DNA of 64,000 nucleotides, taken from assembly GCA_902578115.1 (NCBI GenBank), contig CACHBR010000003.1, positions 62,001 to 126,000 of the forward strand, written 5' to 3'. This document shows, in pieces, positions 1,236 to 55,654 of this stretch (positions within the stretch are counted from its first letter, which is position 1; each line of letters opens with the position of its first letter). Source of the stretch: an uncultured Pelagibacteraceae bacterium. GTDB taxonomy: Bacteria; Pseudomonadota; Alphaproteobacteria; Pelagibacterales; Pelagibacteraceae. The notes beneath the pieces were generated by a model, which was not told where the DNA came from, did no database searches, and was given only the letters and a program-made list of their open reading frames with translations. The translations under genes were made by a program, and so were the position numbers.

Positions 1236-2240
1236 ATGATTTTAAAAAGTTATTTAGTAGAAAAAGATATCACTTTATTGGATAAATATTTTATCACGCT
1301 TATTTATGGTGAAAATATTGGTATGAAAGATGATATTAAAAATGAAATAAAGAAATTTTTTAACGATTATGAAAAGATTACTTTCACTCAAGATGAAATT
1401 TTAAAAGATTATAAAATTCTTAATGAACAAGTCGATAATACATCACTGTTTAGTCAAAAAAAAATTATTTTTATAAGTGAAATTTCTGACAAAATAAAAA
1501 ATCTTATTTCAGAAATTTTAGAAAATCAAAAATCGGACATAAAAATATTTTTGTTTGCTCAAAATCTAGATAAAAAGTCGACTGTTAGAAAAATTTTTGA
1601 GAAAGATAAAGATGCAGGAATTATTGCCTGTTACCAAGACAATGAAAGAACTCTCTCAGATTATATAAGAAAAAAACTAGAAGGGTACACGGGTTTAAGT
1701 CAACAGATGATAAATTTTCTTATTAGTAATTCAGGATTAAATCGAAAAACATTGTTTCATGAAATAAACAAAATAAAATCTTTATTTTCAGATAAAAAAA
1801 TTCATATTGAAAAGCTTCCAGAATTGTTGAATAACAACAATAATTTAGAGTTTGATGATGTTAGAGACTACTGTTTGTGTGCTGAAAAGGAGAAACTCAA
1901 TTACAGTCTTGGTAGTGTAACTTTTCAGAATGAAAACGCTTATTTTTATCTTGGTATTTTAGGGGCAAGATTAGAAAAACTTTTAAATTTAAATTATATG
2001 CTTAAAGAGGAAAAGAGCCTAGAAAAAGCAGTGGATACGATTAAACCACCCATATTTTGGAAAGATAAGCCCATATTTAATAAACAATTAAAAAAATGGA
2101 ATATAAAAAAACTTAAAGAAGCTAAAAGAATACTTTTTAAAACAGAACTACAAATAAAAAGAAATGCTAATTTAAATAATAATATTTTACTAAAAAATTT
2201 AATTATTAATTTATACGAAAAAGCTGAAGCTACTTCCTAA
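1236..2240 (+). CDS. holA: DNA polymerase III delta subunit
   Basis: This is a 334-residue clamp-loader delta subunit, the part that opens the sliding clamp for the replicative polymerase. It has the AAA+-like N-terminal fold without a P-loop, an acidic middle segment, and a helical collar domain at the C-terminus rich in Lys and Leu. Length and position after lptE match the family. The sequence is divergent, so the call is partly by context. Its 3' end overlaps the convergent parB end by 11 bases, leaving no room for a separate terminator. Confidence 0.85.
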   Translation: MILKSYLVEKDITLLDKYFITLIYGENIGMKDDIKNEIKKFFNDYEKITFTQDEILKDYKILNEQVDNTSLFSQKKIIFISEISDKIKNLISEILENQKSDIKIFLFAQNLDKKSTVRKIFEKDKDAGIIACYQDNERTLSDYIRKKLEGYTGLSQQMINFLISNSGLNRKTLFHEINKIKSLFSDKKIHIEKLPELLNNNNNLEFDDVRDYCLCAEKEKLNYSLGSVTFQNENAYFYLGILGARLEKLLNLNYMLKEEKSLEKAVDTIKPPIFWKDKPIFNKQLKKWNIKKLKEAKRILFKTELQIKRNANLNNNILLKNLIINLYEKAEATS

Positions 2241-3075
2241 GTTTTTTTGATATAAGTTCAAATTGTTCTAAAGATTTATATTTAATTACAACCTTTCCCG
2301 AATTATTTTTTTTATTCACTATTTCAATACTTAATCCAAGTTTACTTTCAATTTCATTTTTAATAAATTGAATATTGGGATCTTCTATATCGGATTTACT
2401 TTTTGTTTTTTTATTTTTTACAAGAGACTCGACCTCTCTTGCTGCCACCTTTTTTTTAACAATATTTTCTGCAATTTCTGATGCATTCGGTAAGCCAATT
2501 AAAGGTCTTGCTTGACCAGCGGTTAACTTTTCTTCTTCTAAAAGTCCGATAATATCCTCAGGTAAGTTAAGCAACCTTAAGGTATTGCTTATGTGGCTTC
2601 TACTTTTTGACATAAATTTTGAAATTTTTTCATGATCATATCCAAATTCTTGAACAAGTCTTTGGTATCCCTTTGCTTCTTCTACAATATTTAAATCTTG
2701 CCTCTGTACATTTTCAATTATTGCTAACTCTAAACTTTTCTGGTCATCTATATCCAACACTACGACAGGAACTTTGTTTAGACCTGCACGTTGAGCTGCA
2801 ATCCATCTTCGTTCACCAGCAACTATCTCAAATTTACCTTCTTCATACTTGTTTGGTCGTACAGCTATAGGTTGAATAATGCCATTTTCTTTAATAGATG
2901 ATGACAATTCATTTAATTTATCCTCGTCAAATATTGATCTTGGTTGATATTTATTCCTTACCAAATCTGCTATGGGAATACTATTTGTGTTTAAATTTGA
3001 TGAACTTGGCTTGACTTCTACATCACCAAATAAAGCTGAAAGACCTCTACCAAGACCCTTTTTTGCTGCGTTCAT
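2230..3075 (-). CDS. parB: Chromosome partitioning protein ParB
   Basis: The 281-residue ParB/Spo0J protein starts with KKGLGRGLSALFGD, typical of chromosomal ParB. The NKYQPR box follows at about residues 41-46, GIIQPI at 65-70, and the CTP-binding GERRWIAAQRA motif at 88-98. A helix-turn-helix follows in the middle, and a dimerisation region closes the protein. It binds parS and spreads to form the segregation complex. Its start overlaps the parA stop (ATGA). Two parS-like palindromes lie just upstream in rsmG, consistent with local loading. Confidence 0.97.
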   Translation of the reverse strand: MNAAKKGLGRGLSALFGDVEVKPSSSNLNTNSIPIADLVRNKYQPRSIFDEDKLNELSSSIKENGIIQPIAVRPNKYEEGKFEIVAGERRWIAAQRAGLNKVPVVVLDIDDQKSLELAIIENVQRQDLNIVEEAKGYQRLVQEFGYDHEKISKFMSKSRSHISNTLRLLNLPEDIIGLLEEEKLTAGQARPLIGLPNASEIAENIVKKKVAAREVESLVKNKKTKSKSDIEDPNIQFIKNEIESKLGLSIEIVNKKNNSGKVVIKYKSLEQFELISKKLRK

Positions 3076-3872
3076 GCTGCGCTACCTAGTGTTTGATTTT
3101 CTTGGCTGATAAATTCCTCTGCTAAGTTTATATACGATTTACTACCTGAACATTTTTTGTCATATATTAAACAAGGCATACCATGAGAGGGGGCCTCGGA
3201 TAATCGCACATTTCTTGGTACTACTGTTTTATAAACTTTATTTTTGAAATGCTTTCTTGCTTCAATGTCGACTTGTGATGACAATTTGTTTCTTTTATCG
3301 AACATAGTCAATAAAACTCCTCTGATTCCTAAGTCGGGATTTAAATTAACTTTTATTCTGTCAATTGTTTTAATCAATTGTGTTATACCCTCCAACGCAA
3401 AAAACTCAGTCTGAAGAGGTATTAATAATTCCTCAGCTGAAACCAAAGACATCACTGTCAACAAGCTTAAAGAAGGTGGACAGTCTATAAAAATATTTTC
3501 ATATTTATTTAGATGTAAATCTTGTTCTTTAGTTAAAATCTCTTTTAATAAAAAAGCTCGATTAGCATCGTTCGCGGTTTCAACTTCTAACCCTGAAAGA
3601 TTTACGTTTGATCCAATGAGATCTAGGCCTGGGACACTGCTATGTTGAATAGCCTCCTTAACGGAAGTTTTACCTATAAGTAAATTATATATACTTTTTT
3701 TCTCATCATTATTTGATTTTCCCAAACCAGTAGTGGCGTTACCTTGTGGATCTAAGTCGAGAACGAGGACTTTTTTTCCTTTAATCGCTAATGCGGTCGC
3801 GAGATTTATTACGGTAGTAGTTTTCCCAACTCCACCTTTTTGATTTATTACAGATATTATCGATCTAGCCAC
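3072..3872 (-). CDS. parA: Chromosome partitioning ATPase ParA
   Basis: The 266-residue ParA/Soj/MinD-type ATPase has the deviant Walker A motif QKGGVGKTT at residues 11-19, an LDLDPQGN motif near residue 40, and IDCPPSL near residue 130. It works with ParB on the nucleoid to move the replicated origin region. The gene sits 3 bases after rsmG and overlaps parB by 4 bases, giving the classical rsmG-parA-parB operon. The C-terminal LGSAA tail is a few residues longer than needed; otherwise the protein looks complete. Confidence 0.97.
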   Translation of the reverse strand: MARSIISVINQKGGVGKTTTVINLATALAIKGKKVLVLDLDPQGNATTGLGKSNNDEKKSIYNLLIGKTSVKEAIQHSSVPGLDLIGSNVNLSGLEVETANDANRAFLLKEILTKEQDLHLNKYENIFIDCPPSLSLLTVMSLVSAEELLIPLQTEFFALEGITQLIKTIDRIKVNLNPDLGIRGVLLTMFDKRNKLSSQVDIEARKHFKNKVYKTVVPRNVRLSEAPSHGMPCLIYDKKCSGSKSYINLAEEFISQENQTLGSAA

Positions 3873-3875
3873 AGT

Positions 3876-4514
3876 TTATTTTTTAGCATCAACTATTATT
3901 ATTTTTGAATCACTTGCCGTGATGCTAGGTACTAGCTTATACTTATAAATTAGTCCGTTTGAAGCCTTTTTTAGTTCTTCCTGTGCACTCTTTCCAAGCA
4001 TTACAATAAGTTTATGTGATTTCTTGGAGGTTTCACGTGAAATTCTTAATATTTCAGGCAACTTTTTAAAAGCTCTACATATAATATAATCTGTATCAAT
4101 TATATGAGATTGATAATCATTATCATATATATATGTCTCTTTAAGCTTTAATTTTTTGATAATAGATTTAATGAAATTAACTTTTACTTTTGATTTTTCA
4201 TAAAGTTTCACGTGAAACGTGAGAATATCACTATAAAATATAGATAGAATAATCCCTGGAAAACCCGCTCCAGTTCCTAGATCAGCTAAACTATTAAAAT
4301 TTTTATGATCAATATGCTTAACAAGCTGCGCTGAATCAAGAACATGTCGGTTCCAAATCTCTTTTTCAGATTGTTTAGAGATTAAATTATACTTTTGATT
4401 ATAATTTAAAACCTCTTCCACAAATAATTCAGTAAGTTCAAGTTTTTTTTCGTTAAAATTTAGATCTTTAGTTAAAATAAGCTTTGATTTGACCTTAGAT
4501 TCACTAAGATTCAT
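3876..4514 (-). CDS. rsmG: 16S rRNA m7G527 methyltransferase RsmG (GidB)
   Basis: The 212-residue SAM-dependent enzyme methylates G527 of 16S rRNA. The SAM-binding loop LGTGAGFPG is at residues 79-87, and NRHVLDS lies near residue 55. It is the middle gene of mnmG-rsmG-parA-parB. Two CACGTG-centred palindromes matching parS occur within the coding region and are read in different codon phases (F-H-V-K at residues 100-103, I-S-R-E-T near 158-162). This suggests the DNA word rather than the peptide is being kept. Confidence 0.95.
   Translation of the reverse strand: MNLSESKVKSKLILTKDLNFNEKKLELTELFVEEVLNYNQKYNLISKQSEKEIWNRHVLDSAQLVKHIDHKNFNSLADLGTGAGFPGIILSIFYSDILTFHVKLYEKSKVKVNFIKSIIKKLKLKETYIYDNDYQSHIIDTDYIICRAFKKLPEILRISRETSKKSHKLIVMLGKSAQEELKKASNGLIYKYKLVPSITASDSKIIIVDAKK
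4029..4044. promoter_or_regulatory. parS-like site 1 (inside rsmG)
   Basis: GGTTTCACGTGAAATT contains the 12-base palindrome TTTCACGTGAAA. It matches the widely conserved chromosomal parS consensus (TGTTTCACGTGAAACA) at 13 of 16 positions. It is about 1 kb from parB and sits in rsmG. Confidence 0.75.
4204..4219. promoter_or_regulatory. parS-like site 2 (inside rsmG)
   Basis: AGTTTCACGTGAAACG holds a perfect 14-base palindrome, GTTTCACGTGAAAC, and matches the parS consensus at 14 of 16 positions. It lies 175 bases from site 1. Location beside parAB and near the putative origin makes a ParB-loading role likely. Confidence 0.85.
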
Positions 4515-21635: not shown

Positions 21636-22213
21636 TTTAAATTATTTAAATACTCCTTTATTTTTTTAATTGGAAGTCCCATAATCGAATCCTCTTCTCC
21701 ATCAATTTTTAAAAATAAATCTTTTCCACCAGATTCGATTTGATAGACTCCATAAGCATACAATTTTTTATCATCTACTTTTTTTAAGTAAGATCTAATT
21801 TGGTCTAAATTAAGATCTTTCATAGTAAGAGAAGAAGTGTCTGTATAGTTCCAAATCATTGCTCCATTTTTAGATATACAAACTGAACTTATTAGCTGAT
21901 GTTTTTTTCCATTTAGTCTCATGAGAATTTCAAGTGCTTCTTGTCTTGATTTTGGTTTTGATATTAACTCTCCTTCAAAATCGATAACGCTGTCAGCTCC
22001 CAAGACTATTCTGTCAGGATTTTTATTGCTTACTTTGTTTGCTTTTAATTCTGCCAAATTTTTCGAAATAAGTGTAGGTGTTGCATTTTCATTTAACATC
22101 GCAGCCTTGACCTCATCCTCATCAACATTGGATGGTTCAACATCACAATCTATTTTATTTTTCTCCAAAATTTCTTTTCTTACACCGCTTTTAGAAGCTA
22201 ACACTATTCTCAT
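21629..22213 (-). CDS. maf: Maf-family nucleotide pyrophosphatase
   Basis: The 194-residue house-cleaning enzyme hydrolyses non-canonical or modified nucleoside triphosphates. It starts with IVLASKSGVRKEIL, near the family's LAS-x-S-x-RR/KE-L, and has DSVIDFEGELISKP in the middle and the IDGEEDSIMGLPI tail typical of the fold. Substrate preference cannot be assigned. It overlaps ppsR by 4 bases upstream. Confidence 0.94.
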   Translation of the reverse strand: MRIVLASKSGVRKEILEKNKIDCDVEPSNVDEDEVKAAMLNENATPTLISKNLAELKANKVSNKNPDRIVLGADSVIDFEGELISKPKSRQEALEILMRLNGKKHQLISSVCISKNGAMIWNYTDTSSLTMKDLNLDQIRSYLKKVDDKKLYAYGVYQIESGGKDLFLKIDGEEDSIMGLPIKKIKEYLNNLKW

Positions 22214-23031
22214 TTGCTTTTTTGTATTTCGTAAATTTTAATTATAGAAGCAGCAGTCTCTTCAACTGATCTTCGTGTAACATCTATAATAGGCCATCTA
22301 AACTTTTTAAACATTAATTTAGAATTTTCTACTTCTTCTCTTATTTTTTCAACATTCGTATACAGTTTTAAATCAATGTTGCTGTTAGTATTAGCTCTGG
22401 TCTTTCTTATCTCTGACAGCCTTTCTGGGTCTGCCGTTAATCCAATAACGCAAAACTTATTTTCGTTTTTCTTAAGAAGTTCTGGAATTTTTTGATCTAA
22501 AACCAGGGGAATATTTAATGTTTTAAAACCTCGGTTAGCAAGATAGATTGATGTTGGTGTTTTACTTGTTCTGCTAACACCTAATAAAATTATATCTGCT
22601 ATACTTATATCCTCATTTTTCTTTCCATCATCATGTGTCATTGTGAATTGGATAGCTTCAATTCTTTTATAATAATCTTCATCAAGCACATGTTGAGCAC
22701 TAGGTTTGTGTGTAGCCTTTTGATTAAGTAATTTTGAAAAACTCAAGATTAAATTTCCTAAAACACCAAAACATGGAATGTTATTTTTTAAACTCTCAGC
22801 TGCAAGATGTTTAGCAAGATTAGTGTCGACGATTGTATATAAAATAATAGAGTTATTCTTTTCTTTACATTCTTTAATAATCTTTGCGATCTGTTGTTCT
22901 GTTCTTATAAAAACAAATTCCTTTTTATCATAATCAAAATTTGTAAATTGTGATTGTAAAGCCAGGAAAATTCTATCTAAGGTTTCACCCGTTGAATCAG
23001 ATATAAGGAATATTTGATATTTGTTATTCAT
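22210..23031 (-). CDS. ppsR: Pyruvate, phosphate dikinase / PEP synthase regulatory protein
   Basis: A 273-residue bifunctional kinase/pyrophosphorylase (DUF299) that switches PPDK or PEP synthase off and on by threonine phosphorylation. ISDSTGETLDR is at residues 10-20, and the P-loop is GVSRTSKTPTSIYLAN near residues 150-165. Its target is not in the window. It is the first gene of the minus-strand dnaQ operon and is divergent from hemE across the putative origin. Confidence 0.95.
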   Translation of the reverse strand: MNNKYQIFLISDSTGETLDRIFLALQSQFTNFDYDKKEFVFIRTEQQIAKIIKECKEKNNSIILYTIVDTNLAKHLAAESLKNNIPCFGVLGNLILSFSKLLNQKATHKPSAQHVLDEDYYKRIEAIQFTMTHDDGKKNEDISIADIILLGVSRTSKTPTSIYLANRGFKTLNIPLVLDQKIPELLKKNENKFCVIGLTADPERLSEIRKTRANTNSNIDLKLYTNVEKIREEVENSKLMFKKFRWPIIDVTRRSVEETAASIIKIYEIQKSK

Positions 23032-23307
23032 TATGTGTTGTGAATAATATTAGTATAAATAGAAAATACTAACAGTAATTTAGAAAAAAATTAATTTAAT
23101 AACAGCAACTAACAAATTCTCAACAATCACTTTCATGTTAATGATTTGCTATCTAGTAATTAACAATGTTAATAACATGTCTATAATTCACCTATAGCTT
23201 ATTTTTTTATCAAAAGGCAGTGTAAATAAAATGAGAAATATCCCTATTTTACTAACTAACATGACCTATTACATTAAATATATATTATATCTATATTATT
23301 AATTATT
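23032..23307. other. Candidate chromosome replication origin (oriC) between ppsR and hemE
   Basis: A 276-base gap with no coding capacity, flanked by divergent transcription units. It contains a consensus DnaA box on the minus strand (TTATTCACA, 23039-23047), a one-mismatch box (23221-23229), an inverted repeat CATGTTA/TAACATG (23134-23140 and 23173-23179), and a near-palindrome TTAACAATGTTAA (23160-23172). Its AT tract at 23271-23307 has only two C/G bases, like an unwinding element. In several alphaproteobacteria oriC lies next to hemE. Assignment is inferred. Confidence 0.6.
23039..23047 (-). promoter_or_regulatory. DnaA box (TTATTCACA)
   Basis: An exact match to TTATNCACA on the minus strand, 8 bases upstream of the ppsR start. 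It is the only perfect copy in the intergenic region. Confidence 0.6.
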
Positions 23308-24315
23308 ATGAACAGACTATTGAACTGTATAAATAATAAGAAATCTAGTGATACACCTGTATGGTTTATGAGACAAGCCGGAAGGTATTTACCTGAGTTT
23401 ATGGAGATAAGAAAACAAAATACTGATTTTGTAAAACTTTGTTTAAACAGTGATTTGGCTAAAGAAATTACAATACAACCAATTAAAAGATTTGATTTAG
23501 ACGCTGCAATAATTTTCTCTGATATTCTCATGATCCCCTATGGTCTAGGTCAAAATGTGAATTTTAAAAAAGGGTTCGGTCCACAATTAGACGAAGTCCA
23601 AATAGATATTTCAACTAAAATAAATAACGAAACTTTTACCAACAATCTTAAACCAGTTTATGAAGCAATAAAAAAAGTTAGAATAGAAATAGAAAAAAAA
23701 AACTTAATAGGTTTCGCGGGTGCTCCTTGGACGCTATTTTTATACATGATTAATAGACGATCACCCAAAAAAAATTTTAACTTTGAAGAAATAATTAAAA
23801 ACAATACTCTTACAAGAGATTTATATAAAAAATTAGAAGAAATTATATGCCTTCATATCAAAAACCAGGTAGATGCAGGAGCTAACATAATACAAATTTT
23901 CGATTCTTGGGCAGGTTTACTTCCAGAAAATCAGTTAAAAGATTATTGTTATGAACCAACTAAAAGAATTGTAGAATTCGTTAAAAAACTTAATATTCCA
24001 GCTATCTGTTTTCCTAGAGGCATTGGTAAAAATTATGAAGATTTTTGTTCTTCCGTTAAACCAGATTGTATAAGTATTGATTATGAGGTTGATCCAAATT
24101 GGATAAAACAAAAAATTAAGACACCAGTAATACAAGGGGGATTGGATCCTAAAGTCTTACTAAAAAATAGAGAAGATATAGAAATAGAAGTAAAAAAATA
24201 TTTAGATATATTTCGCGACCAACCGTACATTTTTAACCTTGGTCATGGAGTTCTGCCAGAAACTAAACCTGAAACAATAAAATTTGTAACAAGCTTGGTG
24301 AGAGAATATAAATGA
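23308..24315 (+). CDS. hemE: Uroporphyrinogen decarboxylase
   Basis: The 335-residue enzyme decarboxylates uroporphyrinogen III to coproporphyrinogen III. The N-terminal signature MRQAGRYLPEF is near residues 22-32, and the catalytic Asp is in FSDILMIPYGLG. The region FDSWAGLLP near residue 200 is also typical. It starts a rightward run hemE-hemH-hemJ with 4-base overlaps at both junctions. Confidence 0.98.
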   Translation: MNRLLNCINNKKSSDTPVWFMRQAGRYLPEFMEIRKQNTDFVKLCLNSDLAKEITIQPIKRFDLDAAIIFSDILMIPYGLGQNVNFKKGFGPQLDEVQIDISTKINNETFTNNLKPVYEAIKKVRIEIEKKNLIGFAGAPWTLFLYMINRRSPKKNFNFEEIIKNNTLTRDLYKKLEEIICLHIKNQVDAGANIIQIFDSWAGLLPENQLKDYCYEPTKRIVEFVKKLNIPAICFPRGIGKNYEDFCSSVKPDCISIDYEVDPNWIKQKIKTPVIQGGLDPKVLLKNREDIEIEVKKYLDIFRDQPYIFNLGHGVLPETKPETIKFVTSLVREYK

Positions 24316-53825: not shown

Positions 53826-54369
53826 TTAATTTATAATTTTTTATTAATGGTATCTGGAAAGCTGTAAATATAAAAGTAATTGGTAATATACCCCAAACTT
53901 TAAAATTGATCCAAAATTCCTCTGACTGAGTTCTCCAAACAAATTCATTTAGAGCTGCAAGAAAAATAAAAAATAATATCCATCTATACATCAGCTTATT
54001 CCAACCTATTTCTTCTAACTTAATCGAGCCTTGTAAAAATAATTGTAAGAAATTTTTTTTAAGTATTATTTTCCCAAAAAGTAGTCCAATTGCAAATAAA
54101 ATGTTAATTATTGTTGGTTTTAAATAAATAAATATAGGGTTTTTGAAAAAAATTGTAAGTCCACCAAAAATAGTAATTAAAATTGCACCTATTAAAGGAA
54201 CGTACGGTATTTTCTTATCTAAATAGTATATGATTATAACTGCGAAAATAGTTGCGATAATTAATGGAGGAATTGCGGTTTCTAAATTTTTTCCTCCTTT
54301 ATAGTATACTGTGAAAAAAATAATTAATGGACCAAAGTCTGTAAGCAGCTTAATAAAAGATTTATTCAC
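53815..54369 (-). CDS. yciB: Inner-membrane septation protein YciB (IspZ)
   Basis: A 184-residue protein with five or six hydrophobic helices. FGPLIIFFTVYYKGGKNLETAIP at the start and WNKLMYRWILFFIFLAALNEFVWR in the second half are the family's best blocks. YciB affects envelope synthesis and septation in enterobacteria. Normal length. Divergent from hspQ with 79 bases between the start codons. Confidence 0.93.
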   Translation of the reverse strand: MNKSFIKLLTDFGPLIIFFTVYYKGGKNLETAIPPLIIATIFAVIIIYYLDKKIPYVPLIGAILITIFGGLTIFFKNPIFIYLKPTIINILFAIGLLFGKIILKKNFLQLFLQGSIKLEEIGWNKLMYRWILFFIFLAALNEFVWRTQSEEFWINFKVWGILPITFIFTAFQIPLIKNYKLNEK

Positions 54370-54946: not shown

Positions 54947-55654
54947 ATGATTAAATACTTAAATCCAAGCTATGTTTTTAAAATTTCAGGTAAACTTTTA
55001 AACCTTTTTAAAACCTTATTAATTCCATTAGTGGCTATTGGTTTAATTTTTTCATTATTTTTATCACCTGAAGATTATATCCAAGGTGACTCTGTTAGAA
55101 TTATGTATATTCATGTTCCTTCTGCTTGGATTTCTTTATTTGGTTTTGCTGCAATTAGTTTTTTTTGTATTTTAAACTTTTTGTTTAAACTAAAAAATGT
55201 GACTTTAATTTATAAAAGTCTTGCGCCAATTGGACTAACTTTCAATATTGTAGCAATTGTTACCGGATCTCTTTGGGGACAACCAACATGGGGTACTTGG
55301 TGGGCTTGGGACGCGAGACTTACATCAATGCTTGTTTTAATGTTTTTTTATATAGCGTTTATATTTTCATACAAATTTATAAAAAGTCCAGATAGATCAA
55401 TTAAAGCTTGTACACTTATTTCTGTCTTGGGTTTAATAAATATCATTATTATAAAATATTCTGTTGAATGGTGGTCAACTTTACATCAACCCTCAAGTAT
55501 TAGTCTTGCCAAGGAAACCACGGTACATTTTTCAATGTTAATTCCTTTAGGATTGATGGTATTTGCGCTTTTTATGTATGTTGCGGTAATTTTTCTAATG
55601 AAATATAGGATAGAAACAATTAGAATTAAGAGAAAAGGGTTTAAAAAACTATGA
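54947..55654 (+). CDS. ccmC: Haem exporter/chaperone-loading protein CcmC
   Basis: The 235-residue membrane protein has six helices and the periplasmic tryptophan-rich loop WGTWWAWDARLTS (residues ~111-123), which holds haem. It loads haem onto CcmE in cytochrome c maturation. It heads a rightward operon ccmC-D-E-F-G-H. ccmA and ccmB, which usually precede it, are not upstream here (hspQ is). Confidence 0.96.
   Translation: MIKYLNPSYVFKISGKLLNLFKTLLIPLVAIGLIFSLFLSPEDYIQGDSVRIMYIHVPSAWISLFGFAAISFFCILNFLFKLKNVTLIYKSLAPIGLTFNIVAIVTGSLWGQPTWGTWWAWDARLTSMLVLMFFYIAFIFSYKFIKSPDRSIKACTLISVLGLINIIIIKYSVEWWSTLHQPSSISLAKETTVHFSMLIPLGLMVFALFMYVAVIFLMKYRIETIRIKRKGFKKL

Follow-up and report, generated by a model that had tools for sequence, protein, structure and literature searches.

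The window, the whole 64,000-nucleotide stretch of DNA that was analysed, is a portion of a 138-kb contig (C3) from a draft Pelagibacteraceae genome that is 82% complete. The closest relatives that carry a name are single-cell genomes of uncultured Pelagibacteraceae, and the organism is therefore a SAR11 bacterium. At positions 23032–23307 it contains a 276-bp gap bounded exactly by ppsR on the reverse strand and hemE on the forward strand, and the two flanking genes are divergent, as the initial annotation had stated. The A+T content of the gap is 80%, compared with roughly 70% across the window. The same pair of genes, ppsR (COG1806) and hemE, flanks the published replication origins of Caulobacter and Rickettsia (PMC1914354), which bears out the earlier remark that the origin of several alphaproteobacteria lies beside hemE. 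In common with a hemE–COG1806 origin, the gap is placed between the two genes, is richer in A+T than the genome, and includes an AT-rich stretch. The genes beyond ppsR are Maf, aroE, coaE, and dnaQ, and those beyond hemE are ferrochelatase, UPF0093, and rho.

22210–23031, reverse strand: ppsR (COG1806/DUF299 kinase-pyrophosphorylase), origin-flanking gene (PF03618, 2.2e-88)
23032–23307, no strand: putative chromosomal origin (oriC), based on the conserved divergent pair, gap length, skew, strand bias, and box density
23308–24315, forward strand: hemE, origin-flanking gene (PF01208, 8e-95)

The gap contains a series of DnaA boxes and box-like sites.

23039–23047, reverse strand: DnaA box 1, TTATTCACA, adjoining ppsR; strict consensus match, position kept in most relatives, TGTGGATAA in several congeners
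23096–23104, forward strand: degenerate DnaA-box-like site TTAATAACA; a TTTATTMACA-like element is conserved here in the alignment of the genus
23136–23144, reverse strand: DnaA-box-like site TCATTAACA (forward strand TGTTAATGA), a conserved ATGTTAAT element
23167–23175, reverse strand: putative DnaA box TTATTAACA, the commonest box of the family; position conserved, TGTGTATAA in several congeners
23178–23186, reverse strand: relaxed box TTATAGACA; pattern match only, position not clearly conserved
23221–23229, reverse strand: DnaA-box-like site TTATTTACA, which most congeners carry as TGTAGATAA; one of the best-conserved 9-base windows of the genus

Three boxes in the window match the strict consensus TTATNCACA; the one within the gap, at 23039–23047, is the single perfect box reported previously. 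It is weak evidence, because 4.4% of shuffled gaps carry a strict box. The initial annotation counted one near-box, whereas four sites in the gap differ from the consensus by one mismatch (23167, 23178, 23221, and 23306), the last of which overlaps the start of hemE.

The motif of the family is TTATNNACA, with TTATTAACA as its commonest form. Five TTATNNACA sites are located in the gap out of 23 in the window, with a P value of about 7e-8 that is conditional on the choice of the motif after inspection of the gaps of relatives; at least four were reached in none of 3000 shuffles. One of the five overlaps the start codon of hemE, the site at 23178 is not clearly conserved, and three (23039, 23167, and 23221) are exact and conserved in position. 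Within the window, TTATNNACA sites are densest in the gap, which has the cluster of DnaA boxes characteristic of a hemE–COG1806 origin. A low number of boxes had been taken to fit a reduced origin. The number is low only when the Escherichia coli consensus is imposed, and therefore it is no evidence of reduction; the description as reduced may nevertheless hold, since the gap is shorter than 400 bp and has no CtrA sites.

The locus was compared with 84 loci from relatives, which represent 77 distinct gaps. In every locus where both genes were located, ppsR and hemE are divergent and 258–297 bp apart. The matches to hemE are split across two frames in two relatives (G040:C1:358206-359182 and G131:C5:73510-74500), which suggests a frameshift or a sequencing error. 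The alignment of 78 distinct gaps, including that of the window, contains close species and is unweighted by phylogeny, so that the following counts do not represent independent events: TGTNNATAA occurs at 152 forward sites, versus 13 ± 3.5 expected, and TGTTAATAA is present in 52 gaps, versus 2.4 expected. The TGTNNATAA sites cluster at about 5, 100–105, 125–135, and 185–195 bp from ppsR. The search for conserved 9-mers proposed in the initial annotation thus finds TTATNNACA at fixed positions in the aligned gaps. The cluster of relaxed boxes, with its conserved position and fixed spacing, is not a product of chance.

Two further elements occupy the hemE-proximal end of the gap.

23253–23277, forward strand: core block TAACTAACA-TGAC-CTATTACAT-TAA; box-like site, short spacer, trios CTA and TTA, then CAT
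23271–23307, no strand: AT tract of 37 bases, candidate DNA-unwinding element; one G/C in 37, adjoins the core block; a high A+T content is shared by all relatives

The core block, missed in the initial annotation, shows the highest conservation anywhere in the 21 gaps from the window's genus and sits 30–55 bp upstream of hemE. It aligns with a succession of box, 4 nt, CTA/ATA trio runs, and AT tract in sister genera; the example from sister genus g2 reads TTATTAACA-TGAC-CTA-ATA-ATA-CTA-TTA at the core position. The order of box, spacer, and trios is that of the published DnaA-box/DnaA-trio unwinding module, BUS (PMC8287927, PMC6669920), which is defined by a DnaA box with at most two mismatches followed by at least three trios within 16 bp. 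The sister genera match this module. By contrast, the window's genus has CTA-TTA-CAT with only two consecutive trios, and the box-like site at 23253–23261 has two mismatches even to the family motif. The sole match of the BUS script in the window rests on an implausible box, TTAAATATA. Because the script over-predicts in AT-rich DNA, a stricter box-then-trio rule was used instead, together with shuffles and the reverse strand. In the forward direction 23 of the 78 gaps pass, compared with none as reverse complements and 1.2 in shuffles. A tightened form of the BUS definition is satisfied by 32 of the 78 gaps. No gap of the window's genus passes. It is conceivable, if rather doubtful, that this genus uses a modified unwinding module, in which the trio run is replaced by the almost invariant 21-base block AACTAACATGACCTATTACAT, read differently by DnaA or a partner, at an origin without CtrA control.

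Other elements of the gap named in the initial annotation are less distinctive. The 37-base AT tract exists as described, with its one G/C; however, similar tracts occur in no fewer than four other places of the window. Inverted repeats are also present, but they are imperfect, and the best of them (23156–23165/23167–23176, 10 nt, 90%) is ordinary for DNA with 80% A+T. Each of these two features, like the strict box, is near the level of chance.

The position of the gap in the chromosome was determined in the closed genome of a relative, G003, read almost whole (10 kb missing), and in two sampled genomes from two further genera, G005 and G009. The cumulative GC skew of G003 reaches its highest value at 675 kb and forms a broad trough that takes in the gap at 67 kb. 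The absolute minimum is at 98 kb, 31 kb from the gap, where the value is nearly as low. Among all positions scanned in G003, an origin at 65–70 kb fits the coding-strand bias best. The gap of G003 has four TTATNNACA sites, a number reached by no other 280-bp stretch in 1.2 Mb, and is their densest cluster; places with at least three such sites are limited to 66.8–66.9 kb and 82 kb. The sampled genomes agree: the skew of G005 changes sign near 1.06–1.09 Mb, with the gap at 1.09 Mb, and that of G009 is predominantly above zero between 160 and about 760 kb, with the gap at 141 kb. In all three genomes skew, joined in G003 by strand bias, places the origin within tens of kilobases of the gap, as expected for a hemE–COG1806 origin. 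As first proposed, replication of this Pelagibacteraceae chromosome very probably starts within the ppsR–hemE gap; the skew, the strand bias, the conserved boxes, and the published flanking pair all support this assignment.

Promoters are required for both genes of a divergent pair, and the core block is only 30–55 bp from hemE; local skew minima, moreover, are found about 31 kb away. The gap could be only a shared promoter–operator region of ppsR and hemE, with the origin elsewhere within about 100 kb. This is unlikely, because the sites match DnaA boxes, form the densest cluster of the G003 genome, and coincide with the peak of strand bias. Furthermore, in genus g9 (L208–L213) the gene that directly follows ppsR is rho, 82–84% identical to that of the window; hemE is absent from the locus, and a URO-D gene with a divergent sequence is found elsewhere in the genome. 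Genus g9 keeps the box 5 bases from ppsR (a variant in one of six genomes), a later box, and a box/trio-like tail. The element is therefore independent of hemE and not merely its promoter, and the purely promoter-based explanation was rejected. The genes hemH and UPF0093 are apparently also absent beside ppsR in g9. The element in the gap may in addition carry the promoters of ppsR and hemE.

Origins beside dnaA are common in other phyla. The dnaA gene lies 60–86 kb from the gap (72 kb on the window's contig), and in G003 it is within the broad skew trough. An origin at this place is nonetheless highly improbable and was rejected, since no stretch near dnaA of G003 (129.8 kb) has a cluster of three or more TTATNNACA sites. 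Moreover, the side of the gap on which dnaA lies differs between genera, at a similar distance, and it is hemE rather than dnaA that adjoins the origins published for alphaproteobacteria (PMC1914354). Relative to G003, a block of about 17 kb that bears the gap (−13 to +4 kb) is inverted with respect to both of its flanks on the window's contig; therefore, this segment has been inverted between the lineages. The block corresponds to about 10–27 kb of the window and about 54–70 kb of G003:C1. Judged by the position of dnaA, the arrangement of the window is similar to that in other g1 and g5 genomes, and the arrangement of G003 to that in g3/g12.

The cumulative skew of the 138-kb contig itself has its minimum at about position 55,026 of the window, 32 kb off the gap on the hemE side. 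The off-centre minima at +31.9 kb (G000, the window's own genome) and +30.9 kb (G003) fall in DNA that is non-homologous by synteny, which argues that they are local noise of gene orientation; a second dip is present on the other side. The skew of the draft contig alone is misleading and uninformative on the position of the origin. An origin near 54–55 kb of the window, which this minimum and the strict box found at 54362 would favour, was rejected as scarcely credible, because the homologous DNA of G003 (about −46 kb) shows no skew minimum and no cluster of boxes.

The partition genes reported about 19 kb from the gap are present, together with parS-like sites.

2230–3872, reverse strand: parB–parA, chromosome partition genes (NCBIfam ParB, 1.5e-54; ParA-type ATPase matches), about 19 kb from the gap
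4204–4219, forward strand: parS-like site AGTTTCACGTGAAACG inside rsmG, two mismatches to TGTTTCACGTGAAACA

A second parS-like site, at 4029–4044, has three mismatches. Sites with at most three mismatches number three, and that many together were found in none of 100 shuffles.

The DnaA protein retains the box-recognition motif RDHTTVIHA. DnaA is predicted to bind the TTATNNACA sites, which are distributed across some 190 bp in the direction from ppsR to hemE, and would next occupy the site at 23253–23261. DnaA would extend from this site along a single strand of the CTATTA/AT-rich stretch. The 37-base AT tract would then open, the helicase would be loaded there, and two forks would leave the putative origin. 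With only two clear trios left in the genus, the exact unwinding contacts in the window's species are the least certain step of this predicted sequence of events.

The window gap contains no CtrA site of the form TTAA-N7-TTAA. Across the 78 gaps there are 39 such sites, versus 18.5 expected, distributed over 30 gaps. Most of eight genomes have four OmpR-type regulators each; one example of each of the four classes was compared with the CtrA model, and none reached its cut-off (best 144.9 of 350 bits, the window's own genome being 82% complete). G003 encodes a short OmpR-type regulator of 186 residues whose sole match to known families is a C-terminal DNA-binding one (L077:4859-5419), and similar proteins are found in other relatives. 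The loose IHF consensus WATCAN5WTR has one match in the window gap, at 23125, and the stricter consensus has none. The window gap is also free of GANTC, which is depleted in the 78 aligned gaps (3 versus 10.7 expected); the depletion stands despite a CcrM homolog reported for SAR11 bacteria (PMC3973325).

The origins of Caulobacter crescentus (Cori) and Rickettsia prowazekii have the same flanking genes, DnaA-type sites, and an AT-rich region of about 40 bp; however, they are longer than 400 bp (PMC1914354), compared with the 276 bp of the window gap. They also differ in that the SAR11 sites are mostly TTATTAACA, the window gap is without TTAA-N7-TTAA and GANTC, and no CtrA was found among the OmpR-type regulators examined here. 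The origins of Wolbachia, Ehrlichia, and Anaplasma share with the window gap the hemE side, the DnaA sites, and the high A+T content, whereas their other flank is COG1253 in place of ppsR (PMC1914354).

Few groups of ocean bacteria are as abundant as SAR11, and estimates of growth from metagenome coverage depend on the positions of the origin and terminus. No description of a SAR11 origin sequence was found in the open-access literature searched, and automatic predictions may exist in DoriC. The proposed location matches that of origins in other alphaproteobacteria, and a conserved set of initiator-like sites is retained there even by a genus without hemE at the locus. The comparison of relatives supplies exact candidate sites and shows that the element outlives the loss of the neighbouring hemE. 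The results suggest that replication is initiated here in the absence of the CtrA sites known from Caulobacter.
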